NCBI RefSeq assembly: GCF_010667575.1
Contig: NZ_JAABNT010000014.1
Location: 1-64,000 of the forward strand
From: Sulfitobacter sediminilitoris
Lineage (GTDB): Bacteria; Pseudomonadota; Alphaproteobacteria; Rhodobacterales; Rhodobacteraceae
Direction of reading: 5' to 3'
Length of the DNA stretch: 64,000 nt
The notes under the pieces are model-generated. The model searched no databases and was not told where the DNA came from. It saw only the letters and a list, made by a program, of their open reading frames with translations. Shown here one piece after another: positions 10,400 to 30,371 of the stretch. Positions within the stretch are counted from its first letter, which is position 1, and each line of letters begins with the position of its first letter. The position numbers were made by a program, and so were the translations under genes.

Positions 10400-12112
10400 A
10401 TGGCACGCCACCTGATCACCTCCGCCATTCCCTATATCAATGGCATCAAGCATCTGGGCAATCTGGTTGGCAGCCAATTGCCGGCGGACCTTTATGCGCG
10501 GTATCTGCGGGCACGTGGCCACGAGGTGCTGTTTCTCTGCGCGACGGATGAGCATGGCACACCGGCCGAACTCGCTGCAGCCAAGGCAGGCAAGCCGGTA
10601 GCGGAATACTGCGCTGAGATGCATGCGGTTCAGGCAAAAATTACAGAAGGGTTTGGGCTGTCCTTTGACTATTTTGGGCGGTCTTCCTCCCCGCAAAACC
10701 AAAAGCTGACGCAGCATTTCGCAGGTGTGCTGGCCGATCAGGGGCTGATCGAGGAAGTGACTGAACAACAGGTCTATTCCAACGCCGACGGACGGTTTCT
10801 GCCCGACCGCTATATTGAAGGCACCTGCCCCAATTGCGGGTTCGAAAGCGCGCGGGGCGATCAATGCGACAATTGCACCAAGCAACTTGATCCGGTTGAT
10901 CTGATTGACCCTCGCAGTACTATTTCAGGATCAACCGACCTTGAAATGCGCGAAACCAAGCATTTGTTCCTGCGCCAGAGCAAGATGAAAGATCAACTGG
11001 ACGCCTGGATCAACTCCAAGGCGGATTGGCCCGTGCTGACCACGTCCATCGCCAAGAAATGGCTACATGACGGCGACGGCTTGCAGGACCGGGGGATCAC
11101 CCGTGATCTGGACTGGGGTGTTCCCGTAAAACATGGTGAAAAGGACTGGCCGGGGATGGAGGGCAAGGTCTTCTACGTCTGGTTCGATGCCCCGATCGAA
11201 TATATTGCAAGCGCTCAGGAATGGGTCGATGCGGGCCAGGGAACCAACTGGGAACGCTGGTGGCGCACCGACGCTGGCGCAGATGACGTGCGCTATACCC
11301 AGTTCATGGGCAAGGACAACGTACCGTTCCATACGCTTAGCTTTCCGGCAACCATCATGGGGTCCGGAGAGCCATGGAAACTGGTCGATTATATAAAATC
11401 TTTCAATTACTTGACATATGATGGGGGCCAATTCTCAACGTCTCGGGGTCGCGGTGTTTTCATGGACCAGGCGCTTGAAATCCTGCCTGCAGACTATTGG
11501 CGCTGGTGGTTGCTGAGCCATGCGCCCGAAACATCGGACGCAGAGTTCACATGGGAGAATTTCCAGTCATCCGTGAACAAGGATTTGGCGGATGTATTGG
11601 GCAACTTCGTCAGCCGCATCACAAAGTTCTGCCGATCAAAATTCGGGGAAGCGGTGCCAGAGGCCGGCACCTATGGCGCTGCCGAAGAGGCGCTGATTGC
11701 TGATATCACCGCACGGGTCGCAAAGTATCAAGAGCATATGGATGCCATCGAAGTGCGCAAATCAGCACAGGAACTGCGCGCCATTTGGGCGGCGGGGAAT
11801 GAGTATCTTCAGGCAGAAGCACCCTGGACGACGTTCAAGACTGATGCTGACAAGGCCGCAGCGCAGGTACGCCTGGCACTGAACCTGATCCCGCTTTACG
11901 CAACGCTGTCGGCTCCATTTATCCCAACAGCCAGCCAGCAAATGCTGAAAGCGATGCGGCTGCCAGATGCGATCTGGCCAGATGACGTTCCGGCGGCATT
12001 GGGTCTGCTGTCGCCCGGCCACGCTTTCGACGTTCCAGAGGTCATGTTCGCCAAGATCAGCGACGAAGACCGTGAAGCGTGGTCAGAGCGTTTTGCCGGC
12101 ACGCGCGATTAA
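10400..12112 (+). CDS. metG: methionine-tRNA ligase
   Basis: 570 residues. The class I signature is in [15 protein letters not shown] near residue 10. The connective domain carries a zinc knuckle (CPNC...CDNC, near residues 145-160), and the KMSKS loop appears as FSTSRG near 345, as in the MetG1-type enzymes of alphaproteobacteria. It lacks the C-terminal EMAP/dimerisation domain of E. coli MetG, which is normal at this length. AAAGGAAATAACCC precedes the start. The enzyme charges initiator and elongator tRNA-Met in the cytoplasm. Confidence 0.96.
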
Positions 12113-19699: not shown

Positions 19700-21091
19700 A
19701 TGAGTGAAACTGATTACGACGTGATCATAAGAGGCGGCACGGCAGTGACTGCTAAAGGCGTGCGACGCGCAGATATTGGCATCCGATCTGGCAAGATCGC
19801 GGCCATCTGCACCGGCCTATCCGGGACGGCGCCAACCGAAATCGACGCAAGCGGTAGGCTTGTTCTGCCCGGCGGTGTGGACACGCATTGCCACATCGAA
19901 CAGATATCCGGTGCCGGTTTGATGAATGCAGATACGTTCGAAAGCGCCACCCGGTCAGCTGCTTTTGGTGGCACAACGACGGTGGTCTCTTTCGCCGCAC
20001 AGCACCCAGGTCAGCGCATCCGCAAGGTGGTTGCGGACTACGCTGCGCTGGCGCGCCAAGGTGCCATGATCGATTACGCGTTTCACATGATCGTCGCCGA
20101 TACCAGTGACGGCAATCTTAGCGAAGACATCCCGGATATGATCGCTCAGGGCCACCGGTCCATCAAGGTTTTCACAACCTACGACAAGGTGCGCCAGGAC
20201 GACAAATCCATCCTCGACATTCTTGATGTGGCCAAGCGGGAACATGCGCTTGTCTGCTTTCACGCCGAAAACGACGGCATCATCCGACATATGACCGAAA
20301 AGCTTTTGGCTGCAGGCAATACAGCGCCAAAGTATCACGCCGCCTCGCACCCCCGCGAGGCAGAGATCGAAGCCATTGACCGTATGTGCCGCTTTGCTGA
20401 GTTCGCCGGTACGCGGGTTATGATTTTCCATGTTTCAACCCGCGAAGGCGCTCAGATCATCCGTGATGCCCGTGCGCGTGGGGTTTGTGTTGAGGCGGAG
20501 ACCTGTCCGCATTACCTGTTCATGACAGACAGCGTTCTTGAGCAGGACAATTCTGCCCGCTTTATGTGCTCCCCTCCGCAGCGCACGAAGGACGATCAGG
20601 AAGCGCTTTGGGCCGCGTTCGCAGATGGGACCTTGCAACTTGTGACCTCTGATCACGCCCCTTACCGCATGGATGAAACGGGTAAACTTGCCAATGGCCC
20701 GAATGCTCCCTTCAACCTGATCGCCAACGGGATGCCGGGCCTCGAGACACGGTTGCCGCTGATGTTTGATGCGATGGTCAACCAAGGTCGTGGCGGCCTT
20801 GAAGCCTTTGTTGCCCTTACCGCTACTGCCCCTGCCCACGCGTTCGGGCTGCGCGGCAAGGGTCGGATCGCGGCGGGAATGGACGCCGATATCACGATCT
20901 GGGATCCCGAAATGACCCATACCTACGGTGCGAACGATCTCAAAGACAACGTCGGCTACAATCCGTATCAAGGTACGACAGTCAAGGGCATGCCAGTGAC
21001 GGTGCTCTCCAATGGGCGTGGCATTGTCATAGACCGCCTTTTAGCCGGTGTACCCGGTCAAGGAGAATGGTTGCCGATGGAAATGCGTTAA
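19700..21091 (+). CDS. dihydropyrimidinase / hydantoinase
   Basis: 463 residues of the cyclic amidohydrolase family. Metal ligands are seen in GGVDTHCHIEQ near residue 60, the carboxylated lysine in SIKVFTTYD near 155, the His of FHAEND near 188 and VMIFHVS near 243, and the Asp of VTSDHAPYR near 320. It opens hydantoin or dihydropyrimidine rings to N-carbamoyl acids. No carbamoylase or Pyd reductase is adjacent; instead a racemase and a DapA-like enzyme are, so the natural substrate may be an unusual cyclic ureide. Confidence 0.9.
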   Translation: MSETDYDVIIRGGTAVTAKGVRRADIGIRSGKIAAICTGLSGTAPTEIDASGRLVLPGGVDTHCHIEQISGAGLMNADTFESATRSAAFGGTTTVVSFAAQHPGQRIRKVVADYAALARQGAMIDYAFHMIVADTSDGNLSEDIPDMIAQGHRSIKVFTTYDKVRQDDKSILDILDVAKREHALVCFHAENDGIIRHMTEKLLAAGNTAPKYHAASHPREAEIEAIDRMCRFAEFAGTRVMIFHVSTREGAQIIRDARARGVCVEAETCPHYLFMTDSVLEQDNSARFMCSPPQRTKDDQEALWAAFADGTLQLVTSDHAPYRMDETGKLANGPNAPFNLIANGMPGLETRLPLMFDAMVNQGRGGLEAFVALTATAPAHAFGLRGKGRIAAGMDADITIWDPEMTHTYGANDLKDNVGYNPYQGTTVKGMPVTVLSNGRGIVIDRLLAGVPGQGEWLPMEMR

Positions 21092-21146
21092 GCACATCAG
21101 TGCAAGGACACAATTCGGCGCAATAGAATTGTACTTCATTCTGTAT

Positions 21147-21226
21147 GTGGTGCGGGTGAAGGGACTCGAACCCCCACGCCATAGGCGCCAGAACCTAAAT
21201 CTGGTGCGTCTACCAATTCCGCCACA
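21147..21226 (-). repeat. left attachment repeat (attL): truncated tRNA-Leu copy
   Basis: 80 bases identical to 27966-28045. The copy covers nearly all of tRNA-Leu(UAG), but the first five bases of the 5' acceptor strand are replaced by island sequence, so the acceptor stem cannot form. It is the leftover half of the target duplicated when the element integrated. The trailer to its left is presumably the tRNA's original downstream sequence. Confidence 0.93.
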
Positions 21227-21902
21227 AACCCCAACAAAATCAAACGTTTGCTGAGTCGTGATACCTACCAACAGGAACCTACATCAATTCCTGCACGCAT
21301 CATTCACGACGATGAATCCCCTGTCAATGACCCGAAAAACACCGAATGTGTACCGAATGTGTGACAAGATGTGTGACAACAGAGACCCCTTTGCGCCTCC
21401 CTACCCCCAGAAACTGTTGGACTAGGTAAGAGACAGGGCCTGCAACCTTAGGCATGGGCCATACCCCCCTGTCCCGTATGATATATTCAGCCGCTGCCAG
21501 TGCTTAAGCCTCAGAGTTTGTTAAGTACTTTGGGCCGATCTAGGGCGGATTGGAGCTTGGAGCACTCATCATTGATTGGCGGTCTCGGGACGGTAGAGCA
21601 CTGGGAAATAGTGTTGGCAGATTTCCTTCAAAAAATCTGATATTGTCTGCCGCGACCCTCAAGTAAACCCATGACGTGACAAAACGGACCGTCCTCTTGT
21701 ACGATCAAATCAAGGGAATATCGTGGACATCAGCGCCTAAGGCCCGGGGCTGAGAATTTTGAGGCCTGTATCAGCAGTAAAGAGAAGTAGCAAAACACTA
21801 AATCGATGCAGACAATTCTAAATTATGTCATATGTCCAATTCAGCTGAACTGATCACAGAACGCGCAAATATTAGAATATTCGTCATTTCAGGATGTAAT
21901 AA
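21227..21902. other. noncoding left end of the island
   Basis: About 680 bases without a credible gene. It holds the arm-site-like repeats at 21355-21379 and a further CGTGACAAAA at 21675, then an A+T-rich run that should carry the promoter of the ATP-grasp/CapA gene. CAGGATGTAATAA just before 21903 supplies its ribosome binding site. Confidence 0.5.
21355..21379 (+). repeat. tandem candidate integrase arm sites, left end
   Basis: GAATGTGTGACAAGATG at 21355-21371 is identical to 27897-27913 near the other end of the island. A second ATGTGTGACAA follows 12 bases after the first. Direct repeats of this kind inside both att ends are what arm-type sites of tyrosine recombinases look like; binding is inferred. 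Confidence 0.5.
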
Positions 21903-24077
21903 ATGATTATCAATGAGCAGCCAAACGACTACCGGGATGTTGACCTAGAGTTCTCTGGCGTGACTGATTTGATTGCGCACGAATTTCGAATGCTTGGTTG
22001 CCAAGTTCAAGAGATTGGTCGCCTAGTTTCAATATGTTTAGAAGACAAAGAGGTCTTCACATTCGATTCGGAGACCAGTTACACTTCCCGGGTAAGCACG
22101 CGGGTTCTGAAGAATAAGGCTGTGGCGCGTCAGTTGATAAAGGAGGCAGGTCTTCGCGTTGCAAACGGTCGCTTGTTTTCAAAGAGCGAGAAAGCAAAAG
22201 CCTTCAGCTACATAGAACAAATTGGTTCTGGCGTCATCAAGCCAGTTGATGGTAGCCACGGTAGAGGCGTGAGCGTCGGTGTTTCTGTTGGAGAGTTTGA
22301 CTTAGCATGGGGCTTGGCTGCTAATCTAACTAGAAATGAAATTCTCATCGAAGAGTATTTTAGCGAGGGAACAGAAGCGCGATATCTAATCGTAGATGGA
22401 CAATGAGTTGGAGTATTAGTTCGCTTACCTCCATCCATAATCGGAGATGGAATCAGTACCGTAGATGAACTCATTCGGGCGAAGAACAAACGGAAGCGTG
22501 CTATCCCTGCGCGTCGATCTCATATCATAAAGATGGATGCTCACCGAATAGGCTTGCTTGAAAAACGGGGGCTGTTCCTATCATCGGTGTTAGACGCAGA
22601 TGAGCGTTTGATTATCGACACAAAAGCGGGTTTGTCTACAGGTGGTGATGCATATGAGATTACGGATTTAGTCCGCTCTGATCTGAAGCGGATTGCAGAG
22701 AAAGTTGCAACTATTGCTCCCGGACTGGACGTGACCGGAGTAGATATTCTCGCAAATGATCATTTCAATGCTCGCAGCGAGCTGAATTACATAATTGTCG
22801 AAGCGAACACACGCCCAAACCTATCGGGCCATATATTTCCTGACTACGGACGACCCAATTATGTGCATCGAAAGGTAGCGGAATACTGTTATAAAAAAAT
22901 GGGGCACGAAATACCGAAGCCCCAAAAGAAAATACGTCTATCTGAAGTTAGTAAGATGGTAACCGATACTTCCTCTCGGGATTTCCATAAAATGACAGAA
23001 GTTTCGCTTGTTTTTGGTGGTGATACAAGTCTTGGATATAGCTACATTCAAAAAAACGGCGATGCAAAACTCAAGAAAAGATTAATCGAAGCGCCCCTGG
23101 ATTTTTTCGATGCACTGATGCCTTTAATTTCTGAAAATGACCATTTTGTACTTAACCTTGAAACCGTTTTGGCTCAGTCTGCGAAAGATATTTGGGGAGG
23201 AAAGAAGAATTTCCTAGGGCTAGATGATCCGTGTCAAACAGTATCTGCGCTCAAAACTATTGGTGTGGACTCTGTTTCAGTGGCGAACAACCACACATTA
23301 GATTATGGCGTTGCTCCCTTTTTGGAAACACTTAATGAGCTTCAGAACTCTGGAATCAATACTTTCGGCGGCGGCCGCAACAGACAAGAATCTTTATCCC
23401 CTCTGATTTTACCTACAAATTATGGCAATATATATATTTTTGGTGGCTTCGAGTTTCGGCGGAACTATCAGGAGAATTTCAAGTTTTATTCGGAACTAAA
23501 TCGACCAGGCGTCCAACGCTTTAGTCTAACCTCAGAAAGTCGACTGTCGGAGGAAATTCGCACTGTTAGAAAAAATGACCATGATTCTTTCATCGTGGTT
23601 TTTCCTCATTGGGGCGGTGCAAAGAATTATGCTTGGGCAAATCGAAACATGCTGATAGCGAACACGTCATTTATGAAAGCTGGCGCTGACATCGTCTTGG
23701 GGCACGGAGCTCACATGCTGCAGCAGTGCTGGGTTGAGGACGGCAACACAACTGTCTTTTCATTGGGAAATTTTGTCTTCAATTCTCCAGGGCGTTATCA
23801 GAAGGTGGGCGCGCCACCTTATAGCGCCGTCGCAAGACTTAATTTAAAGAGGATTGGTGAAAAATGGGCAGCAGGCCTACGCCTTTACCCTGTCGTGTCC
23901 GACAATAAGGTTACCAACTATCAACCTCGACCAGTGTCTGAAATTGAGATGGTAGATGTCTTCAATGCATTAACTGAAAATGGGCAAAGGATTTTCCAGC
24001 AAAGCTATTCACTGGGTCAAGACAAACGCGGCTTTTTTCTGGAAAGAAGAGGACCGGTTAGTAGGAAGTGCATATAG
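21903..24077 (+). CDS. CphA-like ATP-grasp ligase fused to a CapA-type metallophosphatase, with an in-frame TGA at 22404-22406
   Basis: One frame of 724 amino-acid codons interrupted only by TGA at codon 168. Residues about 60-320 are an ATP-grasp like that of cyanophycin synthetase: VIKPVDGSHGRGVSVGV near 115-130, then after the TGA PSIIGDGISTVDELI, GLDVTGVDIL and VEANTRPNL. Residues about 360-700 are a CapA/PgsA metallophosphatase with FGGDTSLG, LNLE, VANNHTLDYG, FPHWG, GHGAHMLQ and SLGNFVF. AGGA stands eight bases before the ATG. The TGA falls inside the ATP-grasp strand YLIVDGQ-VGVLVRL. It may be a recent nonsense mutation, in which case this is a pseudogene, or a recoded codon. Likely chemistry: amino acid ligation coupled to polymer or phosphate handling; product unknown. 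Confidence 0.8.
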
Positions 24078-24300
24078 TTTGCTTATAGCACTTCTTTCGA
24101 AAAATCCTTTGCGCTCTCGTTATAGTGCAGACCTCTCAATGACCAATTTACTGCCCTTCTTGCCCTTCAGGCTACCTAACCTCCAAAACAGCGAGAAGGC
24201 CCCTAAAAGGCACCCTCAGATCGCTCTCAGGCCTATTTCTGGGGGCAGTAAGGCGTCGGGTAAGTCACCGATGTGCGATGGAAGCCACTCAAAGCTCTGA

Positions 24301-24440
24301 CCAAGGGGCGCGACTACTGGGTAATCCAATAGGTTTAGATTTCGGCTTTCAGTACCGTCTTCTTGTCTCTTGATGTGACAGGTTCCTATAGTATCTTATA
24401 GCACTTTGTCACAATAACGGCCCCCTAAGCCGAAATTTCA
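24301..24440 (+). repeat. diverged island repeat, copy A
   Basis: Four blocks in the same order as copy B (24732-24890): a CCAAGGGGCGC head, then GATTTCG...CAGTACCGT, then GTTCCTATA...TATAGCACTTTGTC (28 of 32 positions match copy B), then CTAAGCCGAAA. The last block and the CGG before it could fold as a small hairpin. Purpose unknown. Confidence 0.75.
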
Positions 24441-24540
24441 GATTGCCCTTGGTTCTTCCAAAATACTAAAGCGGCCCTATCCCGTAGTTCTTTCTTTCCT
24501 TTTATAATAATACAAGAGACAAAAGAGAAGATGATATGAA

Positions 24541-24568
24541 CCAAGGGCGCGCCTCTGGTTATTCATTA
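24541..24568 (+). repeat. diverged island repeat, partial copy C
   Basis: CCAAGGGCGCGC...CTGGTTATTCATT repeats only the head block of copies A and B, one G shorter, and is followed directly by the palindrome AAATGTACATTT. Confidence 0.6.
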
Positions 24569-24731
24569 AATGTACATTTCTCCAAGAGGGTATTACTTGT
24601 CTATGTGTACATTTTAGAGAATAGAAACTTAAAGATAGAGCCGCTCCATCATTTTAGTTGTCTCTAGTCCAAGAAAACTTTCCTTTATTACCTCTACCCT
24701 TGCTACCAGCTTTAAACCCGTAAGTTATGAT

Positions 24732-24890
24732 CCAAGGGGCGCAACCACTGGATTATTCATTGGGAGTTAGATTTCGACCTACAGTACCGTTTTATTTTGT
24801 TCTTAAGGTATCAAAACTTGGACACGTTCCTATAATATACTATAGCACTTTGTCCCATTTTCGGTCCTACATCTAAGCCGAAAACTCTGG
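24732..24890 (+). repeat. diverged island repeat, copy B
   Basis: Same block order as copy A with slightly longer spacers. It contains the imperfect inverted repeat CTATAATATACTATAG and a TTCGG...CCGAA stem around the CTAAGCCGAA block. It ends at the stop codon of the 195-residue ORF on the other strand, so it could also act as that gene's terminator region. Confidence 0.75.
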
Positions 24891-24891
24891 G

Positions 24892-25479
24892 CTACACTGG
24901 CACGTAAGTACTGACCATGAGTTCCTCAACGTTCCCTTGTCCCCAACCTGCTTCCAGATGCTCCAGAATCTCTTCGTTAGTCCAAAGTTTGAGATCAATC
25001 TCAAGCGGCTTACCCAATTTCTCTGGCCAATAGACCTTGAAGTTCTTTGGAAGAAACAGGTGTTTTTGTTTGGTCTTTTTGGCGTCTCCGGCCCGGTAGG
25101 TTGATAGGAATGCGCAAGCTCTTACAAGCTCGGGCAATGCGGAGAGCATCTTTGCGGGATTAGAAGCGTTAGACCGGGCGACCACTTTCCTTGCAGCACT
25201 CTCGTTGTAACCAAGATCAGACCGCAGCCTCACTAGGCTCTTTGCTGTAATCGGTACTTCGCCCTTGTCCAGAAGCTCCAATTCAAGTCGGTCCGGCATC
25301 AAGTCATTGAACTCAATCAGATGGTCGACAGGCATTTCCACCGGCAGGTTCGACAACAGGAACACCCTTTTCGGGTAACTCGCCCAAACCAGCCGTAGTC
25401 TCGCAAGTGCCTGAACAGTCTCTGCCTCTCGAACCTGCTTCAGTACCGCTGCTAGCCGTGGATCGCTGAAGGCTTTCAC
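24892..25479 (-). CDS. hypothetical island protein, 195 residues
   Basis: Open frame from a GTG at 25479. It overlaps the TGA that ends the integrase-like remnant (GTGTGA), suggesting translational coupling. The protein is soluble, leucine-rich and mostly helical by eye, with a Lys-rich patch (GDAKKTKQKHLFLPKNFK) near residue 135 and an acidic, Trp-containing C-terminus. No family is recognised. It could be a DNA-binding accessory factor given its position, but nothing in the sequence proves that. Confidence 0.5.
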   Translation of the reverse strand: MKAFSDPRLAAVLKQVREAETVQALARLRLVWASYPKRVFLLSNLPVEMPVDHLIEFNDLMPDRLELELLDKGEVPITAKSLVRLRSDLGYNESAARKVVARSNASNPAKMLSALPELVRACAFLSTYRAGDAKKTKQKHLFLPKNFKVYWPEKLGKPLEIDLKLWTNEEILEHLEAGWGQGNVEELMVSTYVPV

Positions 25480-25772
25480 ACCGACACCTGATGGACAGCA
25501 AGATAGCTCTCGAACACCGCCCCTACTGTCTTGCCTAAGGCTTGTTCACGCGCCTCCTCTTTCTTTCGTGACTCTACTGGGTCTTCCCCTTTCTGCATTT
25601 GCAGCAGCTTTTCCCGCGCAAGCTCTTTGGCCTCTGCTACGGTCATTGTTGGATGTTGTCCCAGAGTGATCCTTCTTGTCCTTCCGCCCCTGATCCGACC
25701 TTCGACAATGAACGAGATACGGCCCTTGAAGTACAGGTTTGAAGGGCGAGAAAAGCGCCTGTCGTTTGGAGC
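25476..25772 (-). pseudogene. remnant of a tyrosine recombinase: arm-binding domain only
   Basis: Reading leftward, an open frame without a normal start gives NLYFKGRISFIVEGRIRGG, RRITLGQHPTMTVAEAK and LLQMQKGEDPVESRKK, then GKTVGAVFESYLAVH. That is the order of an integrase N-terminal arm-binding domain running into the core-binding domain. It then stops at TGA (25476-25478), and no catalytic domain follows. The family's first 20 or so residues are missing at the right, where the frame meets the opposite-strand fragment at 25729. Confidence 0.7.
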
Positions 25773-25794
25773 TTACCCTGCCATTTCATTGGCA
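25729..25794 (+). pseudogene. fragment of a second integrase (DUF4102-type arm domain)
   Basis: The plus-strand frame reads KYRFEGREKRLSFGAYPAI followed by SLA, the most conserved part of P4-type integrase N-terminal domains. Family similarity ends at once after this. It abuts the minus-strand remnant head to head, so this point is probably a junction between two decayed elements. Confidence 0.65.
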
Positions 25795-26020
25795 TTTCCC
25801 CGCCATAACCCGACAACACCGCAGAAGAACTATAGACTGAGAATGAAGTCAGAGCACACCTTCGCCGGGAAACATGAAAAGCTTGGGGCTTGGATCCGAT
25901 TGGTTCTCATGAAAAAGCCAAAATTTGGGATGAATCGTTGGCATGCAGGCGCTTGCGCAACGGAACAGAATCGCATTCAATCCCTTCAGCGTTTTGATTG
26001 TGATACTGAGTTCGATAGAC

Positions 26021-26485
26021 ATGTCAGAAGACTTAGCTGCAGAAAGCATCTTGGAGGATATACTCTACAGAACGGGCAAGGGGGTTTTGAAGAATGATGA
26101 CGCGTTGTTTCTCTCATCCATTTCGCTCCCTCTCTTGCAGGAAACCGTAAATGGGCAGCGAGTGTTCTTGTTTGAGAAAGAAGTTTGCCATATGCTTGCC
26201 GACGTTCGGCAGTACATGCAGGAAAACGGTTACGTGGACCTTGTTAGGACGGTCGTTTCGGCTGAGTTCCTCGACTCCAAGACAATAAGTGGTACGCATG
26301 TGTCTCTGATTGTCGACAGAGATGGGAAATCAGATAGACCACCGTACCCTGTTCATTCAGTCATTCGCCTAAAGGGGTCAACTTGGAAATTATCTTCCAG
26401 TATATACGCAATTCTCGACTCTTCAGAACACAACACTGCACTACTTCCTGGATCTCTGCTTTGTGTAAGAACCAAGAAGCACTAA
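26021..26485 (+). CDS. hypothetical island protein, 154 residues
   Basis: Starts MSEDLAAESILEDILYRTGKG; the longer reading from 25943 has an unconvincing N-terminus. The first third is helical and acidic. The rest has alternating strands (VRTVVSAEFLDSKTISGTHVSLIVDRDG, VHSVIRLKGSTWKLSSSIYAI) that resemble an NTF2-like fold by pattern only. It has no catalytic motif or signal peptide. It lies alone between the integrase remnants and the small membrane protein. Function unknown. Confidence 0.6.
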   Translation: MSEDLAAESILEDILYRTGKGVLKNDDALFLSSISLPLLQETVNGQRVFLFEKEVCHMLADVRQYMQENGYVDLVRTVVSAEFLDSKTISGTHVSLIVDRDGKSDRPPYPVHSVIRLKGSTWKLSSSIYAILDSSEHNTALLPGSLLCVRTKKH

Positions 26486-26564
26486 GTGTTGAAGCTGTGC
26501 GAACGGTCAAACGCAGGCAAATCGGAGCGAACCGCGCAAGGCCCTAATATTTTTAGGTCGCAGC

Positions 26565-26801
26565 TCAATCGCCGGTTAGTTTAAGAAGACCATTGATGAA
26601 GAGTTGTGTGCAACAAAAGCCAAACACCACCGTTCCAATTGCTACCCCCTTTACTTCAAGGGTGAACAAAACTCCTTCTGCACCTACGGGTTCGGGACCC
26701 CATTCCCAGATCAATATGATAACAGCACCCGTGATCAAAAACTGAAAGCACATAAAGAGGAAATTCAACACAAATTTCAGAAACTTAAATGCTGTTTCCA
26801 A
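26565..26801 (-). CDS. small two-helix membrane protein translated from TTG behind the integrase
   Basis: 78 codons from the TTG at 26801, one base after the integrase stop. AAGGAG lies seven bases before the TTG, inside the last integrase codons. Two hydrophobic segments (KFVLNFLFMCFQFLITGAVI and GVAIGTVVFGFCCTQLF) flank a WEWGPEPVG loop. It is probably translationally coupled to the integrase. It could be an accessory or holin-like product; no family is recognised. Confidence 0.5.
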   Translation of the reverse strand: METAFKFLKFVLNFLFMCFQFLITGAVIILIWEWGPEPVGAEGVLFTLEVKGVAIGTVVFGFCCTQLFINGLLKLTGD

Positions 26802-26802
26802 C

Positions 26803-27852
26803 TCACTTCTCCTTGATGCTTGCAACCAACAGATGCTTCTTGACAATCTGAACTGGATAACCGTCACCGTAAAGTGAGCCAATGCCCATCCGGCATCGCC
26901 AACCACCAATTTGATCTATCAGCTCCAACGGGCACTCAACGGCCCTGAGACGGTCCCTCATGGTGTGCCTGAGGCAATGAGCGGTCAGTCCGTCAAAGTC
27001 CCTCTTCAACCACTTGTTCAGGGCATTGGACGCATGGGTTGCCTTGCAGGTGCCGTCCTTGATGTACCGAGGGAACAACCACTGTCCGTCTGAGCTTTGG
27101 ACTGCCCTCTCCATCGCTAGCTTGGCGTATCCCACCAGAGGGAGTGTCCGTGTCGAGTTTGGTGTCTTCAATCTTCTTGCAGAGTTTGGACGGATGTGGA
27201 TCAGGTCCTCCTGTAGGTCGATGTCTTCCAGCCTCAGTCCAACAATCTCCGCTAATCGACACCCAGTCTCACCCAGCAAGGGCATCAGAAGCTTCACCGT
27301 ACTGCCGGAGGACAGAGCCTTGTCGTATCCCTGCTTCAGTTGCTCTCTCGTGAACACCCCTCGCTTGAATGTGTCCTCTCCCTCTCCTTGGATCATCAAC
27401 CGTGTGAAGGGGTTTCTCTTGTCGAGGTCCAACTCCGAATAGGCATAGTTCAGGATAGCTGACAGGCTGTTGATCCTACGTCTGACCGTAGCTGTCTTGT
27501 TCCCTCGCAGGATCAGGTGGCGCACAAAGAGCTTGACATCCTCTCGGGTATAGTCACTAACCTCCCTGTCTCCTGCCAAGGATATGAATGTTGAGAGGGC
27601 CACCCGAGGCGGTGTCTGGTCGATCTTCCTCAGGGCTAGGTATTCCTCTGCGATCTCTGACAACAGGTAGGACCGAGGTTTGAAACTCTCTACGACAGAG
27701 ACAACATCAACAGGGGTGATCCTTGTCGTAGCGCTCCAAGACCCCTCTAAGACATTACTCAGACGTTCTGCATAGGCTTCCGCTTCATCCGGGTCTTTCG
27801 ACAGGGCCTGTCTGATGAAATCCCCATAGATTCTTACGGCATGTTTGGGCAC
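26803..27852 (-). CDS. tyrosine recombinase (island integrase)
   Basis: 349 residues from a GTG. Catalytic residues are visible: Arg in GETGCRLAEIVGL near residue 200, Lys in ARRLKT, His-x-x-Arg in AHCLRHTMRDR near 295, the second His position taken by Trp in IGGWRC, and the Tyr in SLYGDGYP near 330. It integrates or excises the element at tRNA-Leu. The frame extends upstream of the GTG with a family-like segment (RRAGTFYYNRRVP) to a TAA at 27892-27894 with no ATG, so the true start may be nonstandard (ATT at 27888) or lost. The arm-like repeat 27897-27913 lies just upstream. Confidence 0.9.
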   Translation of the reverse strand: MPKHAVRIYGDFIRQALSKDPDEAEAYAERLSNVLEGSWSATTRITPVDVVSVVESFKPRSYLLSEIAEEYLALRKIDQTPPRVALSTFISLAGDREVSDYTREDVKLFVRHLILRGNKTATVRRRINSLSAILNYAYSELDLDKRNPFTRLMIQGEGEDTFKRGVFTREQLKQGYDKALSSGSTVKLLMPLLGETGCRLAEIVGLRLEDIDLQEDLIHIRPNSARRLKTPNSTRTLPLVGYAKLAMERAVQSSDGQWLFPRYIKDGTCKATHASNALNKWLKRDFDGLTAHCLRHTMRDRLRAVECPLELIDQIGGWRCRMGIGSLYGDGYPVQIVKKHLLVASIKEK

Positions 27853-27896
27853 ACGACGGTTGTAGTAAAAGGTCCCTGCACGACGAATTGTTTACG

Positions 27897-27913
27897 GAAT
27901 GTGTGACAAGATG
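27897..27913 (+). repeat. candidate integrase arm site, right end
   Basis: GAATGTGTGACAAGATG, identical to 21355-21371. It sits between the integrase start and the tRNA, so a bound recombinase could also repress its own gene. Confidence 0.5.
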
Positions 27914-27965
27914 ACATCCTCCGATGGTTAAAGTCGAAGGAATTTCAGTAGGTTGTCTGATGGTA

Positions 27966-28045
27966 GTGGTGCGGGTGAAGGGACTCGAACCCCCACGCCA
28001 TAGGCGCCAGAACCTAAATCTGGTGCGTCTACCAATTCCGCCACA
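27966..28045 (-). repeat. right attachment repeat (attR) inside the intact tRNA-Leu
   Basis: 80 bases identical to 21147-21226, covering the tRNA from its 3' CCA plus one base to within five bases of its 5' end. The island carries this copy so that the tRNA gene remains whole after integration. Confidence 0.93.
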
Positions 28046-28050
28046 CCCGC
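27967..28050 (-). tRNA. tRNA-Leu, anticodon UAG
   Basis: 84 nucleotides including an encoded CCA. The acceptor stem GCGGGTG pairs with CACCCGC. The anticodon stem CCAGA/TCTGG encloses loop TTTAGGT with anticodon TAG, a long variable arm CGCCTATGGCG marks a class II tRNA, and GGTTCGAGTCC forms the T arm. It reads CUA and other CUN leucine codons. Transcription enters from the right, from chromosomal sequence unaffected by the island. Confidence 0.97.
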
Positions 28051-28194
28051 ACGCTGTCACCTGATGTCCGGCAACTCGCGCTGATTAGCAAAGACTTGGA
28101 CCCATGGCGAGGCCAAAAAAGGGCAAGACTTTAACAAGATGTTGTCATATAGTTTCGATAACCAGAGCAGGTTAATAATAAGAAAGTGACGCCC

Positions 28195-28716
28195 ATGGAG
28201 CCGAAAACGGTCGGGCGCGTTGACGGCCGCGACCGTCATGCGGGCCATTTTACCCCCTATGCCGTGATGGACACCGGACTGATTCACGGTTCCATGCTGC
28301 TGACCCTTGATGGGGAAATGCCAGTTGAGTTTCTGTCAGTGGGTGACAAGCTGATCACGCGGGACACTGGAATTTCCAAAGTTGAGCATATTCAACGGTC
28401 GACACGTCAAGTGCACACCATTGCCTTTGCCGCCGGATCACTGGGAGACACGCGGCCAGAGCATGACGCGCATCTCGCTGGCGACCAGATGGTTCTTATT
28501 CGTGATTGGCGCGCACGGGCGCTGTTCAATTCCGAGCGTGCCCTTGTTGCTGCGCGCGCCCTGGTAGACGGGGAATTCATTACCCATCTCGGCATTCGCG
28601 AAACGACGCTCTACCAGATCTTCTGCGACGGGCCGCACATCCTGTATTGCGACGGTCTTGAGCTTAGCACAGCCGACGGGGCGAAAGCGCGCGGCGCGGT
28701 GCTGCACGCAGCTTAA
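28195..28716 (+). CDS. Hint-domain (hedgehog/intein-like) protein
   Basis: 173 residues from the ATG at 28195; a GTG at 28186 is an alternative. The Hint core is seen in GSMLLTLDGEMPVEFLSVGDKLITRD near residue 32, continuing through PEHDAHLAGDQMVLIRD and YQIFCDGPHILYCDGL. Proteins of this kind are widespread in roseobacters, usually without known function. The expected N-terminal Cys at the splice point is Ser here. The stop interlocks with the nnrDE stop on a shared TTAA, so the two genes converge without any gap. Confidence 0.8.
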   Translation: MEPKTVGRVDGRDRHAGHFTPYAVMDTGLIHGSMLLTLDGEMPVEFLSVGDKLITRDTGISKVEHIQRSTRQVHTIAFAAGSLGDTRPEHDAHLAGDQMVLIRDWRARALFNSERALVAARALVDGEFITHLGIRETTLYQIFCDGPHILYCDGLELSTADGAKARGAVLHAA

Positions 28717-30371
28717 CAGCCCATTTCTCGAAGCGTTTGCGGCAACTGTTCCGGCAGGTCTTCGGCGATAAGGCCGGGGCCAAATCCGCGTGCTGCTTCT
28801 GCGTGCAGATAGGCTGCGATTTCAGTCATCACGAACAGATCACTGCTCAGATGCGGTGCCGCCAGCCCGGCGATCAAACCTGCCAGCACATCCCCTGCCC
28901 CCGCTGTCGCGAGCCAGGGCACCTCGCGGCCATACGTTGCGGCATGTAGCGACGCCCCGCCATCGGGTTGCGCGATCACTGTATCGGGCCCTTTCAACAG
29001 GATGGTACAACCCGCCCGCGCTGCCGCTTGCCGGGCAGCATCGACCTTGGACAGGTCTGTTCGTGCCCGTCCGCTCAGATCCTGGAACAGGCGCGCAAAT
29101 TCCCCCTCGTGCGGGGTCAGGATGGTGCGCTCATGACAATGCTTGAACAGTGCGTCAGGATCGCCTTCGAAACTCGTCAAGGCATCTGCATCCAGCACGA
29201 CCACCGGATCACGCCCAGATGATCCTGCGGCACGCCGCCCCAGAACCTCAATCACCCTGCTGCGCGTGGCATCGGACACACCCATGCCGGGGCCAAGGCA
29301 AAAACCGGTTGCCCGGCCATCCACCACATCCGCCAATAACTGGTCCTTTGCCAGTGATCGCAACATGATCGCGTCCAGATGACAGGCATTCTCAATCAAA
29401 GCGGAGGGTGGACACAGTACTGTCACCAAACCAGCGCCGGACCGCAAAGCTGCACGCGCCGCCATCCGTGCCGCGCCGCCACGCCCTACACCACCTGCGA
29501 AGACAATCACGTGACCATGGTCGTACTTATGACCCATGGCGTAATTCTTGCTCAGCGCGGTTTTCGGCCAGATGCGTTTTGAAAGAGGTCGGCCGAGGAA
29601 ACGCGGCTCCACCAGCCGCACACGCGAGGGGTCAGGCGGCATGCCCAGCATCGCGCGTTCCGCTTGGAGGTCCTCAAGCCCAATATCGACGATACTCAGC
29701 TTGCGGCACAGCGCTGGCCCCATCCCCAGATAATGCCCAATTTTCGGCGCATGAAATGTCACCGTCAGATCGGCCATGTTCAGTGTTTTGGGCCAAGGAT
29801 GCGCATCCTCATCTTCATAGTCAAAATCCGTCAGTACGTGGCCCCGGTCCAGATCCAGACCAGAAGGACAATCTACGGCTACGGTCTTGATATCCGTGGC
29901 ACGTTTCCACACCGTCTTGGCTTTCGAATTCAGCGCAAGGGCAATATGCTCTGGCAGTGGTCGCGTCAGACCGATGCCAAAAACCGCATCAATGATGACG
30001 TCCGGCCTTGGACCGGAGTAGATATCATCCGCCGACAAGGACAGAACCGCGTGTTTTTCGGCCCATCTGTCATGGTTGGTCTTTGCATCTGGCGGCAGCT
30101 TTGAAGGATCGCCGAAAAGGTGTGCGCGGACCTCCCACCCCATCTCATCCAGGAGACGCGCAATGACAAAACCGTCCCCACCGTTGTTGCCCGGCCCACA
30201 CAGGATGACAGCAGCACGGTCGCCATCCTTCAGCTTGGGCCACTCACTAAAAATGGCGTCAACGACGCCCTGCCCCGCGCGCTCCATCAACTCAAGACCG
30301 GTGACCGCGCCGCTGCCTATGGCAGCCTGTTCAATCTCGCGCATTTGCGTCGAAGTCAGCAGTTCGGTCAT
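28713..30371 (-). CDS. nnrDE: bifunctional NAD(P)H-hydrate epimerase / ADP-dependent NAD(P)H-hydrate dehydratase
   Basis: 552 residues. The N-terminal YjeF epimerase domain (about 1-215) has CGPGNNGGDGFVIAR near residue 55. The C-terminal ribokinase-like dehydratase (about 260-545) has AGGVGRGGAARMAARAAL, LTPHEGEFARL and the catalytic GAGDVLAGLIAG near 510. The enzyme repairs damaged, hydrated NADH and NADPH. It is divergent from glnB, with 175 bases between the two starts. Confidence 0.95.
   Translation of the reverse strand: MTELLTSTQMREIEQAAIGSGAVTGLELMERAGQGVVDAIFSEWPKLKDGDRAAVILCGPGNNGGDGFVIARLLDEMGWEVRAHLFGDPSKLPPDAKTNHDRWAEKHAVLSLSADDIYSGPRPDVIIDAVFGIGLTRPLPEHIALALNSKAKTVWKRATDIKTVAVDCPSGLDLDRGHVLTDFDYEDEDAHPWPKTLNMADLTVTFHAPKIGHYLGMGPALCRKLSIVDIGLEDLQAERAMLGMPPDPSRVRLVEPRFLGRPLSKRIWPKTALSKNYAMGHKYDHGHVIVFAGGVGRGGAARMAARAALRSGAGLVTVLCPPSALIENACHLDAIMLRSLAKDQLLADVVDGRATGFCLGPGMGVSDATRSRVIEVLGRRAAGSSGRDPVVVLDADALTSFEGDPDALFKHCHERTILTPHEGEFARLFQDLSGRARTDLSKVDAARQAAARAGCTILLKGPDTVIAQPDGGASLHAATYGREVPWLATAGAGDVLAGLIAGLAAPHLSSDLFVMTEIAAYLHAEAARGFGPGLIAEDLPEQLPQTLREMGC

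Follow-up and report, generated by a model that had tools for sequence, protein, structure and literature searches.

A tRNA-Leu island gene of Sulfitobacter sediminilitoris that joins a cyanophycin-synthetase-like ligase domain to an MslH-like CapA domain and carries one in-frame TGA

The stretch of DNA analysed here (the window) comprises positions 1 to 64,000 of contig NZ_JAABNT010000014.1 from Sulfitobacter sediminilitoris (GCF_010667575.1). At 21903..24077 it holds a gene in which an ATP-grasp domain resembling that of cyanophycin synthetase (CphA1) is fused to a CapA-family domain, and which is broken by a single TGA at codon 168. We lean, by a little, towards reading it as an island-borne ligase-epimerase gene whose two domains may act in turn on the C-terminus of a growing peptide, with codon 168 most likely a nonsense change or an error. 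Of greater interest than the TGA is the fusion family itself, a variant of known enzymes. The features of the gene are as follows.

21903..24077, forward strand: ATP-grasp/CapA fusion gene, whole frame, 724 codons plus a TAG stop, with one internal TGA
22404..22406, forward strand: in-frame TGA, codon 168; close homologs have Cys (TGC or TGT), and the matching residue of T. erythraeum CphA1 is Val317
21963..22901, forward strand: cyanophycin-synthetase-like ATP-grasp (G) domain, about residues 21-333
22998..24074, forward strand: CapA-family domain with a predicted MslH-like peptide-epimerase fold, about residues 366-724

One gene across the TGA

The first-pass annotation had described two open reading frames (ORFs), 21903-22406 and 22533-24077, that share one frame and are split only by the TGA at 22404, and had taken both halves for one gene. 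Its coordinates are correct; the two ORFs encode 167 and 514 aa, and reading through 21903-24074 gives 724 codons of which the TGA at 22404-22406 is the sole stop, and past this TGA the frame stays open for 556 codons. When the two pieces are scanned apart, the cyanophycin synthetase profile TIGR02068 matches with its positions 200-307 before the TGA and 313-480 after it, so that the register is kept, and the CapA domain is found downstream. On this sequence evidence the frame 21903-24077 is one gene.

The two domains and a possible mechanism

The ligase half has the ATP-grasp G domain in common with CphA1 (7wae, 7lg5). It differs from CphA1 in lacking both the N domain and the Mur-ligase M domain; a family scan of the window protein detected no Mur ligase or cyanophycin N-domain family, and an ortholog aligns to CphA1 residues 163-484 only. 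In addition, the position occupied by Val or Leu in CphA1 is Cys in the subfamily. With TIGR02068, separate scans of the two pieces score 50 and 102 bits, under the cut-off of 850.

In the second half, PGA_cap (CapA, PF09587) is found at residues 369-627 with 152.7 bits against a Pfam gathering cut-off of 27. The earlier label of a CapA metallophosphatase is thus upheld as to the family; the word metallophosphatase is in need of revision, as fold and active-site residues match MslH, the Ca(II)-dependent lasso peptide epimerase (8gq9; available part of PMC10406935). In the predicted model of the ortholog at locus L041, the fold matches over 322 of the 437 MslH residues and both His/Asp pairs are in common. 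The six mapped residues of MslH, namely His88/Asp91, His295/Asp11 and the ligands Glu44 and Asn87, are matched (17/17 identical); His88, Asp91, His295, Glu44 and Asn87 were placed by profile alignment, Asp11 by motif position only. MslH His88/Asp91 also match His68/Asp71 of YmdB. Compared with MslH, the window domain is fused to a ligase, and the neighbours of a lasso cluster are not seen on the island.

From these likenesses we infer a mechanism in which the ligase domain would turn a short peptide's C-terminal carboxylate into an activated acyl phosphate and then add an amino acid, and the second domain would epimerise the new C-terminal residue at C-alpha. The result would be D residues in a peptide-like product, with no need for free D-amino acids. 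In this strain, the TGA would end translation inside the ligase domain. For the family as a whole we suggest, tentatively and with somewhat less than even confidence, that it is bifunctional, a cyanophycin-type ligase extending the C-terminus and a fused MslH-type domain epimerising the new residue, so that D residues would enter a non-ribosomal peptide or polymer while it grows. Within this family the domains are joined in both orders, a Halomonas form adds a Mur ligase, and at least the window copy has moved on an island. A peptide-like polymer made by a self-contained pathway had been proposed before; the peptide-like product remains plausible, and the polymer and the self-contained pathway are conjectural. 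To our knowledge, the role of the CapA family in capsule and peptide synthesis has been described only loosely. If true, our suggestion would give CapA-family proteins a testable chemical role, epimerisation at a growing C-terminus, and would pair a cyanophycin-like ligase with a different second active site.

Recurrence of the fusion

Relatives were collected by one scan of 84,980 species genomes, which gave 47 loci; as the scan was seeded with motifs of fusion proteins, locus counts are not an unbiased census. Both domains lie in one open frame at 14 of the 47 loci (eleven with ATP-grasp first, three with CapA first) and in separate frames at the same locus in 12, while 12 loci have the CapA-like domain only and 9 the ATP-grasp only; the model scores behind these counts favour the sequences used to build the models. 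The question, raised by the first-pass annotation, of whether the two domains are fused elsewhere is answered by the 14 loci, and the fusion is real and recurrent.

The nearest relatives are intact and full-length, share the domain order of the window gene and have a Cys codon in place of its TGA. They are a 744-aa protein of Litoreibacter (L040; 49% identity in the best segment, query 1-723) and a 753-aa protein of Rhodobacterales 52_120_T64 (L041; 44% identity, query 23-715). Two Halomonas fusions (L042, L043) likewise have ATP-grasp followed by CapA and Cys at the site of codon 168; in L042, the one scanned, Mur ligase middle and C-terminal domains follow the two domains. Long fusions of Microvirga, Palleronia and Paracoccus (L034, L060, L061, L067, L068, L072) also carry ATP-grasp then CapA in one protein, and differ in their length of about 1000 aa, in extra N-terminal and linker regions and in having F, L or M instead of Cys. 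In Amphibacillus (L050), the sole CapA protein tested among loci L049-L053, the fusion partner of the CapA domain is a TupA-like ATP-grasp.

In the genus Sulfitobacter, 14 of 62 genomes, including the present one, have any match, and no full-length relative was found in the other 61 genomes searched. A scan of viral contigs gave 5 distant CapA-like loci only. Among 178 records from a plasmid protein search, one (Microvirga) covers at least 80% of the query. A literature search that reached few subscription papers showed no title on an ATP-grasp/CapA fusion, which does not prove that none exists, and the available part of PMC12013277 contained nothing against this.

Some further observations were made at these loci. 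At L049-L053 (Natribacillus, Amphibacillus, Alkalicoccus, Salipaludibacillus, Shouchella), one or two CapA proteins are accompanied by three or four ATP-grasp ORFs. The L040 and L042 fusions have enolase-superfamily (MR_MLE_C) genes nearby (L040:2762-3925 and L042:2304-3689), the latter match being under the Pfam cut-off. A phage-type integrase (L041:1781-2842) lies ~4 kb upstream of the L041 fusion gene, and the L041 copy may likewise be mobile. At L037:8927-10009, a Cys-type ATP-grasp gene stands by itself near one end of a 9-kb stretch between 93% direct repeats (1507-1595, 10694-10782), the right one of which lies at the end of an ORF that, read by eye, is rimO-like; the stretch looks like another insertion. 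In the S. sediminilitoris genome itself, contig C4 has a second, free-standing CapA-like gene (L038:8021-9136, 35% identical) near the contig end and beside an ORF resembling a transposase by eye.

Codon 168 and the search for recoding

Which residue homologs have at codon 168 had been left as a question, and in close relatives it is Cys. In an alignment of eight homologs and the window sequence, Cys is found in 8/8 homologs, this being one of 36 positions identical in all other sequences. Among 65 tblastn matches spanning the codon, a few of them from loci that duplicate each other, Cys is present in 12, including all 9 best, and the other residues are V 26, I 7, F 7, A 6, L 5, M 1 and T 1. 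A profile-based count gives Cys in 13 of 156 matches, the ten best included; the profile was built from nine of those loci plus the window, and its scores favour these source sequences. Cys at this position is confined to the close subfamily, where it is encoded by TGC or TGT, each one base from TGA.

Counted on the alignment, the codon is equivalent to Val317 of T. erythraeum CphA1, which is flanked by Arg309 and Arg323. In that enzyme, Arg309 is assigned to the C-terminal carboxylate of the primer and Arg323 to the incoming aspartate (available part of PMC9427784). In the model of the ortholog, the equivalent Cys is predicted to sit in a strand. We know of no redox site at that strand position.

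Pairing of selenocysteine (Sec) with Cys is a usual criterion for new selenoproteins, by which singletons are only candidates and may be sequencing errors (PMC1088965, in the part available). Here, the TGA aligns with Cys in homologs of the close subfamily only. The first-pass annotation had proposed a look for selA, selB and selC, and the Sec genes searched for brought no support: in the genome, the best tRNA-Sec match reaches 46.4 bits against a cut-off of 47 and is called tRNA-Leu by ARAGORN, and the best SelB match reaches 191 bits against 242, SelA not having been searched for. The hairpin 3' of the TGA had already been thought unlike a normal bacterial Sec insertion sequence (SECIS). Its stability does not exceed that of shuffled sequences (z 0.35; equal or better folding in 126 of 200 shuffles), and, in a simplified search with contiguous stems, no hairpin at TGA 22404 satisfies the constraints of the bSECIS model (available part of PMC13188914). 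The test is permissive, being passed by 23 of 182 TGAs in 20001-30000 and by 2 of 9 Cys homologs, yet TGA 22404 still fails it; some real SECIS elements also miss the model, according to the same part of that source.

A UGA-reading tRNA with UCA anticodon was not found among the tRNAs surveyed (41 tRNA matches, one of them the attachment copy, plus 42 pattern matches, with ARAGORN anticodons for 40 tRNA genes); because no tRNA-Tyr appeared, the survey is incomplete and the absence of a UCA tRNA unproven. The missing tRNA-Tyr probably reflects a gap, either in the first-look filter or in the assembly. No second copy with a TGA was seen among the matches listed for genomes sampled from the family (394), the order (390) and the phylum (398); one of these listings, limited to E 1e-40, holds one distant match with an internal TAA. 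A selenocysteine or suppressor reading is thus unsupported by Sec machinery, tRNA survey, SECIS and homologs. The case indicates that the Sec/Cys criterion alone can flag a probable plain nonsense change where no Sec machinery is found.

Alternative explanations

Several findings weigh against our reading, both for the chemistry and for the stop codon. Opposite Arg458 of TeCphA1, the residue by which the incoming Asp is held, the window gene has Ser, so the amino acid added may differ from the Asp of CphA1. The MslH Ca ligands His259/His261 lie beyond the sequence alignment and were not placed, the conserved His569 being a candidate; the NCBIfam MslH model NF038314 reaches 34.9 bits, far under its cut-off of 700. 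Moreover, the signature residues of MslH are partly common to calcineurin-like phosphoesterases generally, so that fold and residues are no proof of epimerase chemistry. The CapA-like domain could instead be a hydrolase, a phosphatase or an export or anchoring factor, as is assumed for capsule CapA proteins, and we put this not far short of an even chance: Pfam lists the domain as capsule synthesis protein PGA_cap, and some relatives adjoin type I secretion-type genes (annotated in Microvirga L034; HlyD in L046). What speaks for an epimerase rather than for these functions is the structural match over 322/437 residues of MslH together with the six identical active-site residues. As a separate observation, two ORFs before the long fusion of genome G066 (L035:1325-4458) resemble, by eye, an ABC protein of type I secretion and an HlyD protein, in line with the annotation beside Microvirga L034.

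As for the TGA, its falling on a Cys codon by chance is mildly surprising, unusual but not decisive, as random one-base nonsense changes hit a Cys codon in 6/312 weighted paths (~2%), or in 6/83 (7%) of those leading to TGA (transitions weighted two to one, codon 168 itself excluded). By a looser measure of conservation, which tolerates one deviating sequence among the others, the window gene keeps 64/71 and 74/84 (peers from 54/70 to 66/70 and from 59/92 to 77/79); of its nine peers in the CapA half, just two score lower, which may point to a slight relaxation of the gene. Of the residues identical in all others, the window gene retains 34/36, departing by V163I and the stop itself, and 48/51, where peers keep 34 of 34-46 and 48 of 48-66; the CapA conservation set leaves out L056 and L062. 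General decay of the gene is not supported, given this retention of nearly all residues invariant in homologs. The conserved residues and the perfect attachment repeats of the island (see below) fit a recent single event, or an error. The first-pass annotation had left open a recent nonsense mutation or recoding, and the former (or an error) is to be favoured: with the gene conserved elsewhere and a search of the host that found no Sec machinery, the most likely origin of the TGA is a recent nonsense change at an invariant Cys, or a sequencing error.

That it is an error of sequencing or assembly, the gene being intact and used, is in itself unlikely, if appreciably possible; the remaining gene is well conserved, the island looks recent with its identical 80-nt repeats, and one base parts TGA from both Cys codons of the homologs, but in other respects the assembly is of good quality (99.95% complete, 0.08 contamination) and nothing specific indicates an error. 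Improbable, in our view, is that the gene now yields a truncated first polypeptide and, from a restart at 22533 or nearby, a separate CapA-like one. An ATG does open the 514-aa ORF with the whole CapA domain, and 12 of the 47 loci have a CapA-like gene without an ATP-grasp match; however, this ATG lies 126 nt beyond the TGA and within the ligase domain, and the break, which falls in the ATP-grasp core with the equivalent of a substrate arginine on either side, would abolish the ligase. Read-through of codon 168 as selenocysteine, or as Cys or Trp by a suppressor or leaky UGA, with the full protein being made, is very improbable. The TGA at an invariant Cys does form a Sec/Cys pair (PMC1088965, same part), the flanks are conserved on both sides and the gene may derive from a donor with other machinery; against this stand the genome and locus searches without tRNA-Sec or SelB over the cut-off or a bSECIS hairpin, the lack of a UCA-anticodon tRNA in a survey itself incomplete for want of tRNA-Tyr, the absence of TGA-bearing relatives among the matches listed, and the predicted location of the Cys in a strand outside any redox site that we know of.

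The island and its surroundings

By its sequence context, the fusion gene is cargo of a 6.8-kb tRNA-Leu island that was brought in by an integrase. The remaining features of the island are listed here.

21147..21226, reverse strand: left attachment repeat, 80 nt of the tRNA-Leu gene, 100% identical to 27966-28045
24892..25479, reverse strand: island ORF, 195 aa, no family above cut-off
25943..26485, forward strand: island ORF, 180 aa, no family found
26803..27852, reverse strand: tyrosine integrase, 349 aa (PF00589 57.1 bits; PHROG integrase 1.2e-39)
27967..28050, reverse strand: tRNA-Leu (TAG), the integration target; 27966-28045 is the right attachment repeat

The tyrosine integrase adjoins the tRNA-Leu gene, and the left repeat scores as a partial tRNA (38.4 bits, 21153-21231). 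Integrase, tRNA target, direct attachment repeats and absence from relatives, the last judged from the genus search and, at tRNA-Leu loci, on short flanks only, are thus all found, as expected of a tRNA-targeting island. The island interior had no match in eleven tRNA-Leu loci of the genus that reach at most ~1.4 kb past the tRNA, L256 ending at the tRNA itself. In windows of 1 kb, the GC content of the island ranges over about 43-53%, and that of the flanks shown over 54-63%. The genome assembly has 4.86 Mb in 99 contigs.

The placement of the fusion gene as island cargo, already proposed in the first-pass annotation, agrees with the tRNA-Leu target, the integrase and the perfect 80-nt repeats, but it is not strictly single-gene cargo, for two further ORFs of no identified family are present besides the integrase. 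PADLOC detected no family for the fusion gene or these two small ORFs, and PHROG none for the latter. Searched against plasmids, the island DNA returned 197 records, of which the best 20 match only 2-3% of it, at the tRNA ends.

A 25-nt direct repeat (92%; 21347-21371 and 27889-27913) lies just inside the island ends and possibly represents arm sites of the integrase. Another direct repeat, of 47 nt (81%; 24377-24423 and 24821-24867), is located after the fusion gene and before the island ORF that follows. Outside the island, next to the tRNA, 28186-28716 encodes a Hint-domain (PF13403) protein of 176 aa.
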